A DNA stretch of 64,000 bases from Dermatophagoides farinae (taxonomy: Eukaryota; Arthropoda; Arachnida; Sarcoptiformes; Pyroglyphidae): the NCBI RefSeq assembly GCF_024713945.1, contig NC_134683.1, forward strand, positions 3,163,501-3,227,500, read 5' to 3'. Position 1 is the first letter of the stretch. Each line of letters begins with the position of its first letter. The notes beneath the pieces were generated by a model. The model saw only the letters and a program-made list of their open reading frames with translations. It was not told the origin of the DNA and did not search any database. This document shows positions 4,701-52,862 of the stretch, one piece after another. Position numbers and translations under genes: made by a program.

Positions 4701-5632
4701 ACAATCATAATAATAATGATCATCATCATCAAGCTACTGTGTGTGTGTGTCTGTATTGTTATTATTCAATTCTTATGTTGTTGCTGCTGATGCTGCTGTT
4801 TTTGTTTTGTTTTGTTTTGTTTGAATTTATAGCCATTGGCCATATTATATAGACATTGATAATATTATTGTTCACGTGATAATAGCAGTAATCATTATTC
4901 ATTCAAATTCAAATTCAATTTTGATTCAAGATGATGATGATCATGATCATGATGATGATGGTTGTATTCTATTTCAATAGATATTTGATGATTATAATCA
5001 TAATAATAATAAATAAATAATGATAACATGAACAACGAACCAACCAGACAAACAAAACAAATTGAAAAAAAATAGAAATAGAAAACTACACAAACAAATC
5101 GACAACAACAACATAAACAATTTGCTTAAAGCTATTTCATTCATTCATTCAGAATGATTTGTCAACTCTTTTCATGATGATGAAATGGAGATTATAATTG
5201 GCCAATGGATGGATGGATGGATTAATCAAATCGATTTTTACTACTACCAGTACCACAACCACCATCACCACCACTAATGATCAAAGATAATGATAATGAA
5301 TTTTGCAGCTATACAAAGAATATTTAAAATTGAAAATCAATTAGACTCTAATTCAACTATCGATTGATTGATTGTGAATCGATTTTTTTTTGTTTGAATT
5401 CAAATTCAAATCACACAAATTGAATGATTCAAATGGAGAAAAAAAATCGATCGTGTTTTCAAATCGAATGATTTGAGATACGAAAACAAAATGAAAAAAA
5501 AACCAAGAAAAAAAACCGAAAAAAAGAAATCATGTTTTGCATTTCGAAGAAAAAAAATTTTTTTTGATTTTTTCTTTTTTTTCGGACAATTGCTGACCAT
5601 TGTAAATATGTGTGTGTTGGTCGGTTGGTTGA

Positions 5633-5634
<2 letters not shown>

Positions 5635-5663
<29 letters not shown>
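5635..5663. repeat. (TG)n dinucleotide microsatellite
   Basis: About fourteen uninterrupted TG units, among the longest dinucleotide tracts in the left part of the window. Similar shorter tracts occur near 4386-4404, 9568-9590, 11849-11872, 12957-12981 and 14460-14482. Confidence 0.9.
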
Positions 5664-5665
<2 letters not shown>

Positions 5666-7313
5666 ACAAACCTAGTAATCAAATTCAATCATTTCATCAT
5701 CATAGCCATATTCATTGTCATTGTTCAATGTAAAATGTATATATATGTGGAAATGGAGTGTGGGGTGTGGGGGTTAGATTTTGATGAAGATCACGAAGAT
5801 TGACCAATCAATGATTCATACATAAAATGTAAAGTAATACAAAGCCGGATCCTTTCAACAACAAATGCAAAAAAAAAAGAATGAAGAAAAAAAAGTTTCA
5901 GACATGACATACACAATCCATATTATTATATCCATACAATCATCATCATATACAGTGGTGGTGGTGGACATTGGTTGTACATTTTGAGAAATGATGATGA
6001 TGATGATGAAAAAAAATCAATTTCAATTGACTGACCAACCAAACAAAAAATTGTACGTTCTTTTTTTTTCTTCATTGGAAATTGACTCGAAATGATTGGA
6101 CAATAGCAACAACAACAACAACAACAACAAATTTTGTTGCAGCACCATGGTTTGATGACAAAATTGATTTCGTTTTTTTTCGTGTTCGATTTTGAATTCG
6201 ATAAACATTTCAGTTACGAGTTCAGCTGCTGCTGCTGCTGCTGTTAATGGTGACACACACACACACAAACAGCCTGTTTTTGGCCTCTTTCTTTCTTTCT
6301 GTATTTGGGTTTGTGTGATTGTGATTGACATCCAAAGGAAAAAAAAAGAAACACGCATTTGGTCTAGGTCTCATGAACATGCAAATTGTTGAGATTATTA
6401 TGGGATTTTTTTTTCTTTTAGCCTTAGTGAGAAATGATGATGATGATAATACCTTGATGGTCCAGACAGAGGTGATATTGGATTTTTGAAATTGAAATCG
6501 ATCATGTCGCCATCATGTCCGCCGTTCATCATCATCATCATCATCATGTGATCATGATGATGACCGGCCAATTTTTTTTGAGGGTCATCAACGAATAGCT
6601 CTATATCCACCATCACCAACATTGATGAGTGGCCGTCGATTTCATCGATGGTCAATTATATTGAAAAGCCGCCAATGAATATACAAACAGACAGGCAGGT
6701 AAGAAAAAAAAACCACAACAATGTTCATGATGATGATGATGATGATGGGGCTCATCATACCATCATCATCATCATCACTATGAAAGAAACTAAAAACCAC
6801 ATAGGGGTAGTTTCACTATATATCAATGTTGACGATGAAAAAAAAGAAGAAAAAAAAGGCAGGTAATTGAAGACCATTGCCGATCTCTGTGTGTATGTGT
6901 GTGTGTGGACCAATTTTCGCCAATTCCTCATCATCATCATCATCCATGGATAGGTTTTGTCGATAATGACACACTGTGTGTCCACATGATGATGATGATG
7001 ATGATGATGATGACAATGAGATTGACCAGCCTGAATGAATGAATTATATAAAGAAATAGAATCTATCAAATGTCCATGTATAAGATCGAATAGATTGTGA
7101 ATGTGTGTGTGGGGGGAAAGAATAGAGAGATAATGACAACAAAAAAAAAGAAAAAAAATTATTTTTCGACCAGCTGAGAATTGACTTGTGGTCAACATAT
7201 TTTAGCACTATATATTCTATATATGTGGTTCTATAACCTATGATTATGTCAGTCACATCGACAGATCAAGCAAGAGAGTGGACATAGACCAAAATGTAAA
7301 TGGCTGACTGAAA

Positions 7314-48000: not shown

Positions 48001-48884
48001 GTGCTATCGAAGCATTCGATTATCTTCATACAAGAAATATTATTTATCGTGATTTGAAACCGGAAAATATGTTACTGGATCCATTTGGTTATGCTAAATT
48101 GACAGATTTTGGTTTTGCCAAACGATTATTGCCACCGGGTAGAAAGACATGGACATTCTGTGGAACGTATGTATTCTATTTGAAAAAATTTCAAGAATAA
48201 TAATTCATTTCCAATATTAGGCCTGAATATGTGGCACCAGAAATCATATTGAATCGTGGACATGATCATTCTGCCGATTATTGGTCATTAGGTGTGCTCA
48301 TGTATGAATTACTCACCGGAACGTAAGTATTTTTATTTTGACATTTTTTTCTTTTGCATGCAATTTTTAACGGAATTTTTTTGAATTATTCATTAGGCCA
48401 CCATTTTGTGGTACCGATCCAATGCGTACATACAACATGATACTCAAAGGTATCGATTCAATCGATTTTCCTCGTTCGATTTCACGTGAAGGTGTTGAAT
48501 TAATTAAAAAACTTTGTCGAGATAATCCTGCTGAACGTCTTGGATATCAGAAACGTGGTATCGATGATATTAAAAATCATGAGTAAGTATATAGTAAATT
48601 GAATTAAATTTTCAAGTCTCATGATTACCCACCAATCATTTTTTTCATATTCAAAAAAAAGTTGGTTTAAAAATTTTGATTTCGAACAATTGAAATCACG
48701 CCAAATGAAACCACCATTTGTTCCTATCGTAAGTTTTAAATGTTTAAAAAAAATTTGCTGATTCATGGATAATTTATTTCAACAGATCAAAAGTGCATGC
48801 GATTCAACAAATTTTGATACATATCCACCAAATCGTGATCCTGATCCACCGGATGATTTTACCGGTTGGGATGATGAATTTTGA
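44421..48884 (+). CDS. for: cGMP-dependent protein kinase (PKG, foraging/PRKG1 type)
   Basis: Cytosolic Ser/Thr kinase of the AGC group activated by cGMP. Ten exons: 44421-44959, 46179-46459, 46543-47014, 47122-47199, 47570-47817, 47890-48166, 48221-48322, 48397-48582, 48662-48728, 48786-48884. All are GT-AG and in phase, for 782 residues. In order: an N-terminal leucine-zipper helix (about 41-77, [15 protein letters not shown]), a Ser-rich linker, the autoinhibitory segment [12 protein letters not shown] (about 150-160), CNB-A with [19 protein letters not shown] with [17 protein letters not shown] and an extra Ser/Thr/Asn-rich loop before it, then the kinase with [26 protein letters not shown] and the activation loop [11 protein letters not shown]. 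The tail ends [10 protein letters not shown], as in other PKGs. The start could also be 44262 or 44460; 44421 is a compromise. Intron 1 is 1.2 kb, long for this locus. Poly(A)-like signals lie near 49371. Confidence 0.94.
44960..46178. other. Large first intron of the PKG gene
   Basis: 1.2 kb between the leucine-zipper exon and the first cGMP-binding exon. It holds a (CA)n tract at about 44977-45012, a (GT)n tract at about 45709-45739 and A/T runs. A further promoter and first exon for a shorter isoform could lie here, as the fly for gene has several, but I see no coding evidence for one. Confidence 0.7.
44977..45012. repeat. (CA)n microsatellite directly after the PKG exon 1 donor
   Basis: About eighteen CA units starting 17 bases after the exon 1 splice donor. 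This is among the longest dinucleotide tracts in the window and lies where intronic CA repeats are known to affect splicing in other animals. Confidence 0.9.
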
Positions 48885-49268
48885 AAATTTGACAACACTC
48901 AAATGTACTCATCTAAAAAAAAGGATGTGTGTTTGGTGTTGAACATCAAGATGATGGTGATGATTGATTACTCTGGTCGAGAATTGTGTTGATATAAAAA
49001 TTCAAGTGCAAATTAATCGTTTTTTTTCTTGCCTACGATGTCTGTGTTAGCGTGTTCAATAATTTTTTTTTTAAATGAAGAAAATTCACGGATCAATCCG
49101 TGAATCTTTGATTTGATTTGATTGATTGATTTGTATTTATTCCAATTTCAAATTCACATACACAGATTGTACACCAATCAAATCAGATCCGATACACATT
49201 TTTTGAGAAAATTCAAATCAAATTCTGATTTTGTCGTTTGTTAAATGTTTTTCTTTTCCTTTTTCACA

Positions 49269-49306
<38 letters not shown>

Positions 49307-49412
49307 CAATCGGATAGAAAATTCCTGTTCTAATTCATGTCTCTTGTTTTCATATTTGTAAAAAAAAATTAATAAATAAAAAAATTGATTGATTGATTTT
49401 TTTTCGATTCGA
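48885..49412. other. PKG 3' UTR and flank
   Basis: About 530 bp of A/T-rich DNA with an (ATT)n tract at 49272-49303 and AATAAATAAA at 49371-49380, the likely poly(A) signal of PKG. No coding sequence. The inverted-repeat element begins about 30 bp after this signal. Confidence 0.65.
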
Positions 49413-49686
49413 TATATTAGATTCGACAAAAAGTCGTGTCGTTTTTTTGTATAACATTTTTGAACGACTGTCACAAAAATTTGGTAAAGGTTCCGACATC
49501 GACTATGACCTTAATTTATTCTTTGATGATCAGACTTTAATTAAAAAATAAATTTTTCCCAACTTTGCCCGCCGGAAGTGGTGGCGGGCCTCTGGTAGTG
49601 GACACATCAAAATACGAAATTTTAACCATTTTGATTTTTGCTCGTACTGACCCCGACCAAAGAGGTAATGGTCACCTGACCACTCA

Positions 49687-49944
49687 ATGGAAATTCCACA
49701 TGTCCTAGGAGTTGAAAAAAATTGTGGGCGTAATTCTTCCTCAACTCATCCTTTCTCAGGAGCGGATCAAAATCCGGTCGGTCGCTATCAGCCACTGTGT
49801 TATTCAGCCATAGGAAAAATATGCTTCAAAATGAAATTTTTAAAAAATTTTGATCAATTATCGCACGACACGTTTTCCGCTAACCAAAAAGTCAAAAAAA
49901 AAAAATTGGTTGACCAAAAATTCCAAATTTTTGAAAATTTTTAA
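49687..49944 (+). other. Mirrored short ORF in left arm, unknown
   Basis: An 85-codon open frame starting MEIPHVLGVEKN. The right arm carries the same frame on the minus strand (50914-51138, 74 codons, one early Cys/Tyr difference and a different end caused by a poly-A/T length change). It has mixed amino-acid composition, unlike the microsatellite frames elsewhere. I do not recognise it, and it does not match the transposase motifs I know. It may be chance or a decayed gene fragment carried by the element. Confidence 0.3.
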
Positions 49945-50226
49945 AATCGCATAACCGACAATGCAATGCATGTGCCGTCAGCCACTCTGCCAATGGCATT
50001 GCCCATTGAAATTGTCAACATTAACATGTTGGGTTTGTTTCATATCGACATTCATGGTGCAGAAACAAGATGAATTCATGAATTCACAACACCATAAGTC
50101 GAAAGCCAATTTTTGAATTTGATTCGTTTTCCGCTAACCAAGAAGTCAACAAAAAATTTTGGTTGACGAAAAATTCCAAATTTTTGAAAATTTTTAAAAT
50201 CGCATAACCGACCATACAATGCATGT
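49879..50226. repeat. Diverged direct repeat pair, ~96 bp, inside the element
   Basis: The stretch at about 49879-49975 (from CGCTAACCAAAAAGTC to GCAATGCATGTG) reappears at about 50131-50226 with several changes (for example AAGAAGTCAAC and CCATACAATG). The offset is about 252 bp. The first copy is in the left arm and the second begins exactly where arm symmetry ends, so the second copy marks the breakpoint between arm and spacer. The two copies differ much more than the two arms do. Confidence 0.75.
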
Positions 50227-50227
50227 G

Positions 50228-50352
50228 ATTTCAGTCTGGAAGATAAACCGCGATCTGGCCGACCTCAAGAGATTGACGATGATGAGTTGCTGGAACTGAT
50301 GGAATCGAACCCGAAGCAAACTTCCGATGAATTGTCCAAGATTGGTTTCTGA
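50228..50352 (+). pseudogene. mariner transposase fragment (N-terminal DNA-binding part), plus strand
   Basis: Translates to DFSLEDKPRSGRPQEIDD followed by DELLELMESNPKQTSDEL, then a stop at about 50350. FSLEDKPRSGRP is the characteristic linker between the two helix-turn-helix motifs of mariner transposases. The fragment lacks a start and the whole DDD catalytic domain. It directly follows the second copy of the internal direct repeat. Confidence 0.8.
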
Positions 50353-50374
50353 CAACTTGTGTCTTGTCCAATGA

Positions 50375-50604
50375 TCATCAATTCCAGCAACTTATCATCG
50401 TCAATATCGGTCGATCTTCCAGGCTGAAATCATCATCTTGAAATCATTGGAACCATCGCTGAACGGTTACAGCATTTGTATAGGCTTTGTTGATTTCAAA
50501 TGTAGCCGTAGTTGTATTGTATTCTCGTTTAAACCAGTAAGCCATTAAATGGCGGATGTGAACATCAGTTGGTCAAATTTCAGTCATTTTTGTTAATCAA
50601 TTTA
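50375..50604 (-). pseudogene. mariner transposase fragment (N-terminus), minus strand
   Basis: Reading leftward from a Met near 50590-50604, the frame gives an N-terminal helix-turn-helix region with HLMAYWFKREYN and NAVTVQRWFQ, then DDDFSLEDRP. It has two in-frame TGA codons, one likely from CGA (Arg) by CpG decay. It lacks about 12-18 bases in the SGRP region relative to the plus-strand fragment, which shifts its frame. The two fragments share sequence and face each other tail to tail, so symmetry continues imperfectly into the spacer. Confidence 0.75.
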
Positions 50605-51412
50605 TCGTTGTGTGTTCGATTTTTTTTTCATTAAATTTTTTTGTTGTTCATTAATCAATATTTTTTAAAATTTTCCAGTAATCATTCGTTCGCTGTAAAA
50701 CGAATCAAATTCAAAAATTGGCTTTCGACTTATGGTGTTGTGAATTCATGAATTCATCTTGTTTCTGCACCATGAATGTCGATATGAAACAAACCCAACA
50801 TGTTAATGTTGACAATTTCAATGGGCAATGCCATTGGCAGAGTGGCTGACGGCACATGCATTGCATTGTCGGTTATGCGATTTTAAAAATTTTCAAAAAT
50901 TTGGAATTTTTGGTCAACCAATTTTTTTTTTGACTTTTTGGTTAGCGGAAAACGTGTCGTGCGATAATTGATCAAAATTTTTTAAAAATTTCATTTTGAA
51001 GCATATTTTTCCTATGGCTGAATAACACAGTGGCTGATAGCGACCGACCGGATTTTGATCCGCTCCTGAGAAAGGATGAGTTGAGGAAGAATTACGCCCA
51101 TAATTTTTTTCAACTCCTAGGACATGTGGAATTTCCATTGAGTGTTCAGGTGACCATTACCTCTTTGGTCGGGGTCAGTACGAGCAAAAATCAAAATGGT
51201 TAAAATTTCGTATTTTGATGTGTCCACTACCAGAGGCCCGCCACCACTTCCGGAGGGCAAAGTTGGGAAAAATTTATTTTTTAATTAAAGTCTGATCATC
51301 AAAGAATAAATTAAGGTCATAGTCGATGTCGGAACCTTTACCAAATTTTTGTGACAGTCGTTCAAAAATGTTATACAAAAAAACGACACGACTTTTTGTC
51401 GAATCTAATATA

Positions 51413-51835: not shown

Positions 51836-52862
51836 ATGAACGCATTCGATACATTCATGTCATCATTGGATCGGCGATTGTAAGTTTTTGAAATTTTCGT
51901 TGAAAAAATGCTAAAATATTTAACTTGGACATGTTTTAATTTCTTATTATAATAGGGAGCCACAAGTCCAAACACATTTGAAAAAAGTCTATTCAACATT
52001 GGCCATTTCGGTATTGTCGGCTTCTATTGGTGGTTATGTCCATCTTTATACTAGCCTTTCGAATGTTATTGTAAGTGAAAATTTGATCATCTAATCACTA
52101 AATTTAATCGTACATATTAGGGAGGATTCTTGAATTTTATCTTTATGACAGGTCTACTCATTGCATTGTATTCAACACCGGATAATGGAAAGAATCAACC
52201 ATTACGTTTGAATTATTTGCTTGGTTTTTCATTCTTTTCTGGCTTTGGCCTCGGTTCATTGATTGAACATTCATTATATATTAATCCAAGCATCTTACCG
52301 ACGGCATTTATGGCAACAGCATTGATATTTGCTTGTTTCACCATCTCAGCCATTTATGGTGATCGACGTAAAACATTGTTTTATGGTGGTATCCTATTCT
52401 CTGGTCTATCATTATTAACATACATGTCGTTGATTAATTTGTTCTTCAGATCACAATTAATGTTCAAGGTATGTGTGCATTTTAGATTCGATAAATTATA
52501 AAATTACTGATTATCCATTTTTAGGCTTATGTTTATATTGCATTTGCCATTATGTGTGCATTTGTCATCTATGATACGGCATTCATCATTGAGAAACGTC
52601 TTCGTGGCGATACCGATTACATTGGGTAAGTGTTTCTCTATTTGCATTCATATATCACAGACCTTTCTAATCTAATCTTTTATATTCTAGTCATTCAATC
52701 CTTTTGTTTATGGATTTAATTAGCATTTTCCGTCATTTGTTGATATTGCTTACCGAAAAGGTTGGTTATTTTTTATAAATCATTTAAAATTCAAATTAAT
52801 CATATATTTTAAAAACAAAATTATAGGAACGTAATGATCGTCGAAAACGGAATCGAAACTAA
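51836..52862 (+). CDS. TMBIM6: Bax inhibitor-1 (TMBIM6) homologue
   Basis: ER membrane protein of the BI-1/LFG family that limits ER calcium load and cell death. Six exons: 51836-51879, 51956-52070, 52121-52468, 52525-52625, 52691-52760, 52827-52862. All are GT-AG and in phase. They encode 237 residues, exactly the human TMBIM6 length. Family landmarks: EPQVQTHLKKVYSTLA near the N-terminus, then six to seven hydrophobic segments, the hallmark INPSILPTAFMATALIF, GDRRKTLFYGGIL, the acidic calcium-sensing region around FVIYDTAFIIEK, and GDTDYIGHSILLFMDLISIF. The tail is short and basic (ERNDRRKRNRN), as in animal BI-1. Several AATAAA copies lie at 53279-53302. Confidence 0.95.

Follow-up and report, generated by a model that had tools for sequence, protein, structure and literature searches.

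The window, a stretch of 64,000 nucleotides of the Dermatophagoides farinae genome (contig NC_134683.1, positions 3,163,501 to 3,227,500), includes a transposable element of about 2 kb with two long inverted arms around a short spacer. The element is probably a non-autonomous foldback of the mariner kind, in which arm tracts are exchanged with related elements and one arm is then copied onto its counterpart. The inverted-repeat search detected the arms as two segments, one of 491 nt with 99% identity (49413-49903/50922-51412) and the other of 235 nt with 100% identity (49896-50130/50697-50931), with 566 nt between the arms. Aligned as a whole, the arms (714 and 712 bp) include 709 identities, 3 mismatches and 2 gap positions. 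This agrees with the preliminary description of the window, in which near-identical inverted arms and a 566-bp spacer with transposase pieces had been noticed. Also the TA-flanked 2-kb element proposed there was found, but the limits quoted for it, 49413..51412, include the TA and two extra bases on each side.

The search covered one genome, with 62,435,336 bases in 22 contigs, and produced at least 43 matches to the window arm, its own two among them. In agreement with D. farinae as the host, a reading frame of this genome (in L041) scored higher against Der f 2 (290 bits) than against Der p 2 (267 bits). Twelve copies with two arms were defined (L009, which is the window copy, L011–L018, L020, L021 and L022), all situated in different genomic places and flanked by TA at both ends, with arm lengths of 361–714 bp. 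The existence of other copies, for which a search with the arm had been suggested, and the foldback structure, with long inverted arms and a short middle in several copies, were in this way confirmed, and the 12 TA-flanked copies rule out a lone inverted duplication or a lone assembly error. Copies L011–L016, of about 1 kb, have a common loop of 243–244 bp, to which the 274-bp loop of L018 is related with about 14% divergence. Copies L017, L020 and L021, of about 1.8 kb, have a common loop of 628–629 bp including an N-terminal piece of transposase, and L022 (1.3 kb) and the window copy (2 kb) fall outside both loop groups. L020 and L021, which lie at different loci, align over 1,783 bp, spacer included, with 99% identity, so the foldback unit itself has moved. 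The within-copy counts below concern these twelve copies and exclude the single-armed or broken L010, L019, L023/L033, L024, L025, L027 and L028 and the relict mariner L026.

Compared over their first 374 bp (361 in L018), the two arms of the same copy differ by 0.00–1.07% in 8 of the 12 copies; for arms of different copies the range over this stretch is 0.3–18.4%. The whole arms of L020 are identical (573/573). No other copy is closely related to that of the window, the nearest arm elsewhere being 12.3% away. A single foldback origin followed by independent drift of the arms predicts a difference between the two arms of one copy at least as large as that of the same arm between two copies with a common foldback; the opposite was seen.

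The comparison of L017 with L020 shows the same contrast within one loop group. Their loops differ by 1.7% (11/649) and their arms by 12.1% (69/562 and 67/563), with the changes in mirror image (one arm against the loop, p 2.6e-14; here and below, Fisher tests are uncorrected for multiple testing). A shared loop between arms 12% apart indicates that the identity of the arms within a copy has been renewed and does not merely reflect youth. Coding constraint was rejected as the cause of the low loop divergence of L017, as the loop frame has two stop codons. The loops of L011–L016 are inner-arm sequence, which is not known to have a coding role.

Each copy could also stem from its own recent inverted duplication, in which case the arms would match through youth and no conversion would be involved. 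The window copy would fit such an origin, as its arms differ at only three sites and two gap positions and the full spacer does not recur in the genome, and for this copy alone it is possible. For the loop-sharing copies independent duplications were rejected: these copies show mirror-image arm differences of up to 12%, inner arms are common to copies with different outer arms, and the foldback unit with its spacer is common to the loci of L020 and L021. As a general explanation separate duplication is very unlikely. The low arm divergence had earlier been ascribed to either recent origin or gene conversion; gene conversion, or an equivalent form of copying, is supported, and a recent origin is not needed, given the loop-sharing copies with arms 12% apart.

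The mirrored differences extend to the whole set of copies. In the 149 variable columns the left base equals the right base in 94.9% of the cells, with L010, L019, L033 and L024 as comparison rows. When the right arms were shuffled among the copies, agreement had a mean of 70% and a maximum of 83.8% in 2,000 tries, and the observed value was never reached (0/2000). In this test, as in the bin and tip analyses, 374 bases were aligned also for L018, although its arm is 361 bp, and this inflates the last within-copy bin. The tree joined both arms of the copy in 8 of the 12 cases (L009, L013, L014, L017, L018, L020, L021 and L022).

Variability between copies was highest in the outer 25 columns (25.2%) and in columns 176–200 (25.1%), and the within-copy difference was 1.7% in each of these ranges. 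In 9 of the 12 copies both ends have the same 16-base tip (Table 1), while shuffled pairs gave a mean of 1.3 and a maximum of 6 in 10,000 tries; altogether nine distinct tips occur among the 12 copies. Matched tips could result from selection only, if elements with both ends fitting one transposase were those that moved and no arm-to-arm copying took place. Ordinary mariners have terminal repeats of roughly 30 bp; here the matching spans the whole arm of 361–714 bp, and selection on the ends would not mirror changes 300 bp or more inside. Selection on the ends is therefore insufficient alone, and very improbable as the full explanation, but it may work alongside copying.

L017, L020 and L022 are mosaics of one another. 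The mosaic test included L017, L020, L021, L022 and L009 together with one arm each of L012, L013 and L015. Between L020 and L022, the sites that differ in columns 1–375 number 63 of 373 in the left arm and 61 of 358 in the right, and those inward of column 375 number 1 of 168 and 0 of 202, respectively. As far as column 322, L017 resembles L022, with which it agrees at 52 of the 58 informative sites in the left arm and 50 of the 56 in the right, and past this column its informative sites fit L020 (5/5 and 4/4); L017 and L020 do not differ at all in columns 323–425 (0/103 on each arm). The best breakpoint of L017 was placed at the identical column in both arms, and its maximum chi-square was reached by none of 1,000 permutations per arm. 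One-sided differences were also found. In L011, 8 of 73 sites differ between the arms within the first 75 columns, compared with 2 of 301 farther in (Fisher p 4.9e-5). L016 has a similar one-sided tip difference and more differences along one arm, some of them matching L020. Such one-sided arm differences fit intermediates of an exchange followed by copying.

In the proposed mechanism, an element would have two transposase-binding ends within long inverted arms but lack a working transposase, and it would be mobilised in trans by a mariner transposase from elsewhere and inserted at TA. An arm tract, often including the tip, would first be exchanged with a related element. The altered arm would then be copied onto the opposite arm of the same element, by gene conversion or by fold-back templated repair. 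Both ends would again carry one sequence, and two identical ends may suit the transposase.

Several observations weigh against this exchange and copying. The arms are unmatched in L011 (2.7%), L012 (3.7%), L015 (2.1%) and L016 (8.3%), and those of L022, although 99.6% identical where aligned, include 49 gap positions. Among L011–L016 the divergence of the left arm significantly exceeded that of the loop in only 7 of 15 pairs and was significantly lower in one of the 15, both counts being uncorrected. Of the 3,587 pairwise differing columns, 958 are not mirrored. The tree support is weak for L014 and L017, and the arms of L011, L012, L015 and L016 are placed apart. The inner arm of L017, starting at column 426, matches neither L020 nor L022 (13–15 differing sites), and a third source or an older history is needed there. 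None of the four matches to PF01359 in the genome is an intact transposase with matching ends. Finally, the evidence comes from a single genome, and if the assembly is the one that it probably is, Illumina correction could have removed small arm differences.

The last point bears also on a possible assembly artefact, in which long reads with missed adapters would have given false palindromes or short-read correction would have equalised the arms. The D. farinae assembly reported in PMC11074847, probably the one used here, was made of PacBio reads with Illumina correction. Its reported mean subread of 7.4 kb is, however, longer than the element (PMC11074847). Furthermore, TA is present on both sides of the 12 copies and spacers lie between their arms, private mismatches occur, the arms are unequal in 4 of the 12 copies, and correction is unable to create mirrored between-copy differences of 12%. 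An artefact is extremely improbable.

The mariner origin claimed in the preliminary description is borne out by the TA flanks and by the transposase pieces of the window spacer, which are 92 and 78% identical to a mariner gene elsewhere in the genome (Table 1). This gene belongs to L026 (C1:7188686-7191526), in which the transposase lies in two overlapping frames of 183 and 226 amino acids with the domains HTH_48 (E 7.9e-14) and Transposase_1 (E 1.5e-28). Its catalytic triad is DD34D, with 34 residues between the second and third D as counted by eye, and this spacing identifies it as a mariner in the strict sense. L026 is non-working in its present form. It is flanked by TA, as are all 12 foldbacks, and it shares its terminal repeat with them: its right end is 96% identical to the window arms over 79 bp and its left end 85% over 129 bp, and both its ends carry the same 16 variable bases as both tips of the window element. 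The Mos1-type helix-turn-helix and the DD34D triad are thus linked to the family via L026. The tip pattern was found in 34 places of the genome, compared with 4 for the reversed control; 26 of the 34 are the two ends of 13 elements (the 12 foldbacks and L026) and 8 are single. Three isolated family tips in L038 and L039 (C7:605010-607298 and C7:641519-641575) have similar flanks, and they probably represent one old insertion spread by local duplication.

The genome search with PF01359 gave four matches (L026/L029, L030, L032 and L031/L035), this model covering only a part of the gene, so that transposase copies without that part would escape. L026 (L029) needs two frames, and L030 and L032 each carry a stop. 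L031/L035 has an open frame, in which the first catalytic D is absent and with which no tip of the foldback family is associated. In L035 (1173-2477, plus strand; C7:892172-893476) this mariner-type frame is uninterrupted over 435 amino acids and includes both HTH_48 and Transposase_1; the first catalytic Asp is replaced by Gly (GGEKW), runs of poly-N/H/Q are present, and no foldback-family tip lies nearby. L035 is possibly a domesticated mariner gene. Open frames with the DNA-binding part of the transposase and without the catalytic part were detected also in the spacers of L020 (1237-1572, plus strand) and L021 (1180-1530, minus strand). The L020 frame matches HTH_48 with E 8e-15, and the equivalent frame is broken in L017. 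The products of these frames could act as a repressor.

In the relict L023/L033, about 420 bp of arm sequence directly precede the N-terminal frame of the transposase, which suggests that this group of mariners may have had long ends from early on. No fresh inversion is required to explain the long arms, and the foldbacks may be internal-deletion products of long-ended mariners. A few kb from the transposase-bearing relict, L033 also includes a frame (4744-6000, minus strand; contig C3) which we take to be that of a Copia-type retrotransposon.

The window spacer was further rearranged. Its sense and antisense transposase pieces cover an overlapping part of the gene in opposite directions, and a part of the arm is duplicated at the border of arm and spacer (Table 1). 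The 41-amino-acid sense piece had no Pfam match. Among the 36 matches of the spacer in the genome, only its own was of full length.

The element sits downstream of a cGMP-dependent protein kinase gene, which has cNMP_binding and kinase domains and cGMP-dependent protein kinase 1 as its best PDB match. In the last coding exon, as read from the translation, the stop codon is at 48882-48884. Downstream of this stop, a single A(A/T)TAAA hexamer was found within 48901-49420, on the kinase strand, and the element begins 40 bp beyond it. Beyond the element, an exon of the Bax1-I (TMBIM) type lies at 52121-52498 on the same strand as the kinase.

Table 1. Features of the window element and of its flanks, in window positions.
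Feature	Position	Strand	Details
Foldback mariner-type element	49417..51408		1,992 bp; from the inverted-arm search and 11 further two-armed copies in the genome
TA target-site duplication, left	49415..49416		
TA target-site duplication, right	51409..51410		
Left arm	49417..50130	+	714 bp
Right arm	50697..51408	-	712 bp, 709 identities to left arm
Left tip	49417..49445	+	TTAG-N16-TGTCGTTTT, N16 = ATTCGACAAAAAGTCG
Right tip	51380..51408	-	16 variable bases equal to those of left tip
Spacer (loop)	50131..50696		566 bp
Mariner transposase sense piece (N-terminal part)	50225..50343	+	92% to L026 1775-1893
Mariner transposase antisense piece (N-terminal part)	50357..50594	-	78% to L026 1799-2063
Direct duplicate (about 90%) of arm positions 49871-49981	50125..50234	+	110 bp, at arm/spacer border
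AATAAA	49371..49376	+	Sole A(A/T)TAAA hexamer within 48901-49420, downstream of kinase stop

A role of the element in the production of small interfering RNAs (siRNAs) is plausible, as had been suggested for the hairpin, and its position and predicted fold would fit such a role. Read-through from the kinase gene or from another promoter would produce a double-stranded RNA of 700 bp, from which Dicer would cut siRNAs silencing mariners. The predicted fold is a single stem of -1444 kcal/mol, in which 707 of the 712 arm positions are paired with their mirror partner (within 4), while five mononucleotide shuffles gave -436 to -464. Any element with long arms would fold in this way, and the folding is thus no evidence of use. 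The absence of the Piwi-interacting RNA (piRNA) pathway in house dust mites was reportedly described from D. farinae itself. According to PMC5805368, house dust mites are without this pathway, and their transposon siRNAs are made by Dicer from loci of double-stranded RNA. The three main loci of that study span 62 kb and include several kinds of transposable elements, however, and its main text mentions neither a mariner nor a hairpin. That the hairpin is a functional trigger of silencing appears rather unlikely.

Frames with a Piwi domain are also present in the genome. Of the 22 Piwi-domain matches, 4 were compared with PDB sequences; three of these fitted Argonaute best and one PIWI weakly. 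The last is L066 (C2:11521-12027), which matched only PIWI proteins (Siwi, E 2.3e-5). In addition, weakly scoring Piwi-domain matches are clustered within about 9 kb at C2:6491833-6500391 (L055, L057, L059 and L063–L065).

Nearly palindromic elements are known from the Tc1/mariner superfamily in Caenorhabditis elegans, where Tc4 and Tc6 have arms of 700–800 bp and belong to other families than the mite element. Among described systems, Galileo (subfamily Newton of Drosophila buzzatii, P superfamily) has similar foldback-like long terminal inverted repeats (TIRs), which were reported as more than 99% identical within two copies, with about 7% difference between those copies and about 6% within two chimeric copies (PMC2775673). 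In Drosophila willistoni, unlike in the mite, the P-superfamily element has target duplications of 7–8 bp, and its ends were reported to be more conserved than the rest (PMC4168063), whereas the outer 25 columns of the mite arms are among the most variable. The TA duplication and the mariner transposase pieces place the mite element outside Galileo and the P superfamily. Tetris of Drosophila virilis is likewise described as a foldback, apparently non-autonomous, with long TIRs and signs of homogenisation; it differs in the tandem repeats within its TIRs and in target duplications of 8–10 bp, and a Mutator relationship was suggested by its authors (PMC4079207).

Closer in superfamily are the long-TIR (LTIR)-like elements of aphids, which are Tc1/mariner elements with long TIRs and internally deleted copies (Apismar5, with TIRs of at least 460 bp, and MITE5 derivatives; PMC5490172). 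Their transposases are reported to be DD40-41D and related to rosa/maT (PMC5490172), while L026, the only relict readable across that part, has DD34D and sets the mite family apart from them. Bari of Drosophila, with long inverted repeats of about 250 bp, belongs to the Tc1-mariner superfamily and has a TA target and non-autonomous forms (PMC4877112); its arms are shorter than those of the mite. The terms "gene conversion" and "foldback" are absent from the main texts of both PMC5490172 and PMC4877112. A literature search on Dermatophagoides farinae and mariner gave no paper, and among the matches listed (titles and beginnings of abstracts, few subscription journals) there was none on a mite mariner foldback or on mirrored mosaic arms in mariners. 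Within-copy matching of long TIRs is known from fly transposons, and here it is seen in mariner-type elements of a mite.

The ends of a DNA transposon must fit its transposase, and how both ends of a non-autonomous copy come to change jointly is not obvious. For Mos1, two preferred ends were reported to give a 26-fold higher transposition in vitro than the natural unequal pair (PMC4505599); equal ends could accordingly be favoured, and long arms would be a route to keep them equal. As a tentative possibility, the long arms could be an end-swapping device, by which the palindrome gains at one end a new transposase-recognition tip, derived from a diverged mariner, and then duplicates this tip at the opposite end. 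If so, the element would keep its mobility while transposases that prefer different ends replace one another, and the nine different tips among the 12 copies would be a fossil record of past end types. The mosaic mirrored arms and the one-sided differences, present in a single genome, make the order of exchange and subsequent copying testable. The dozen transposon-derived hairpins are also candidate sources of siRNAs in a group of mites reported to be without a piRNA pathway.
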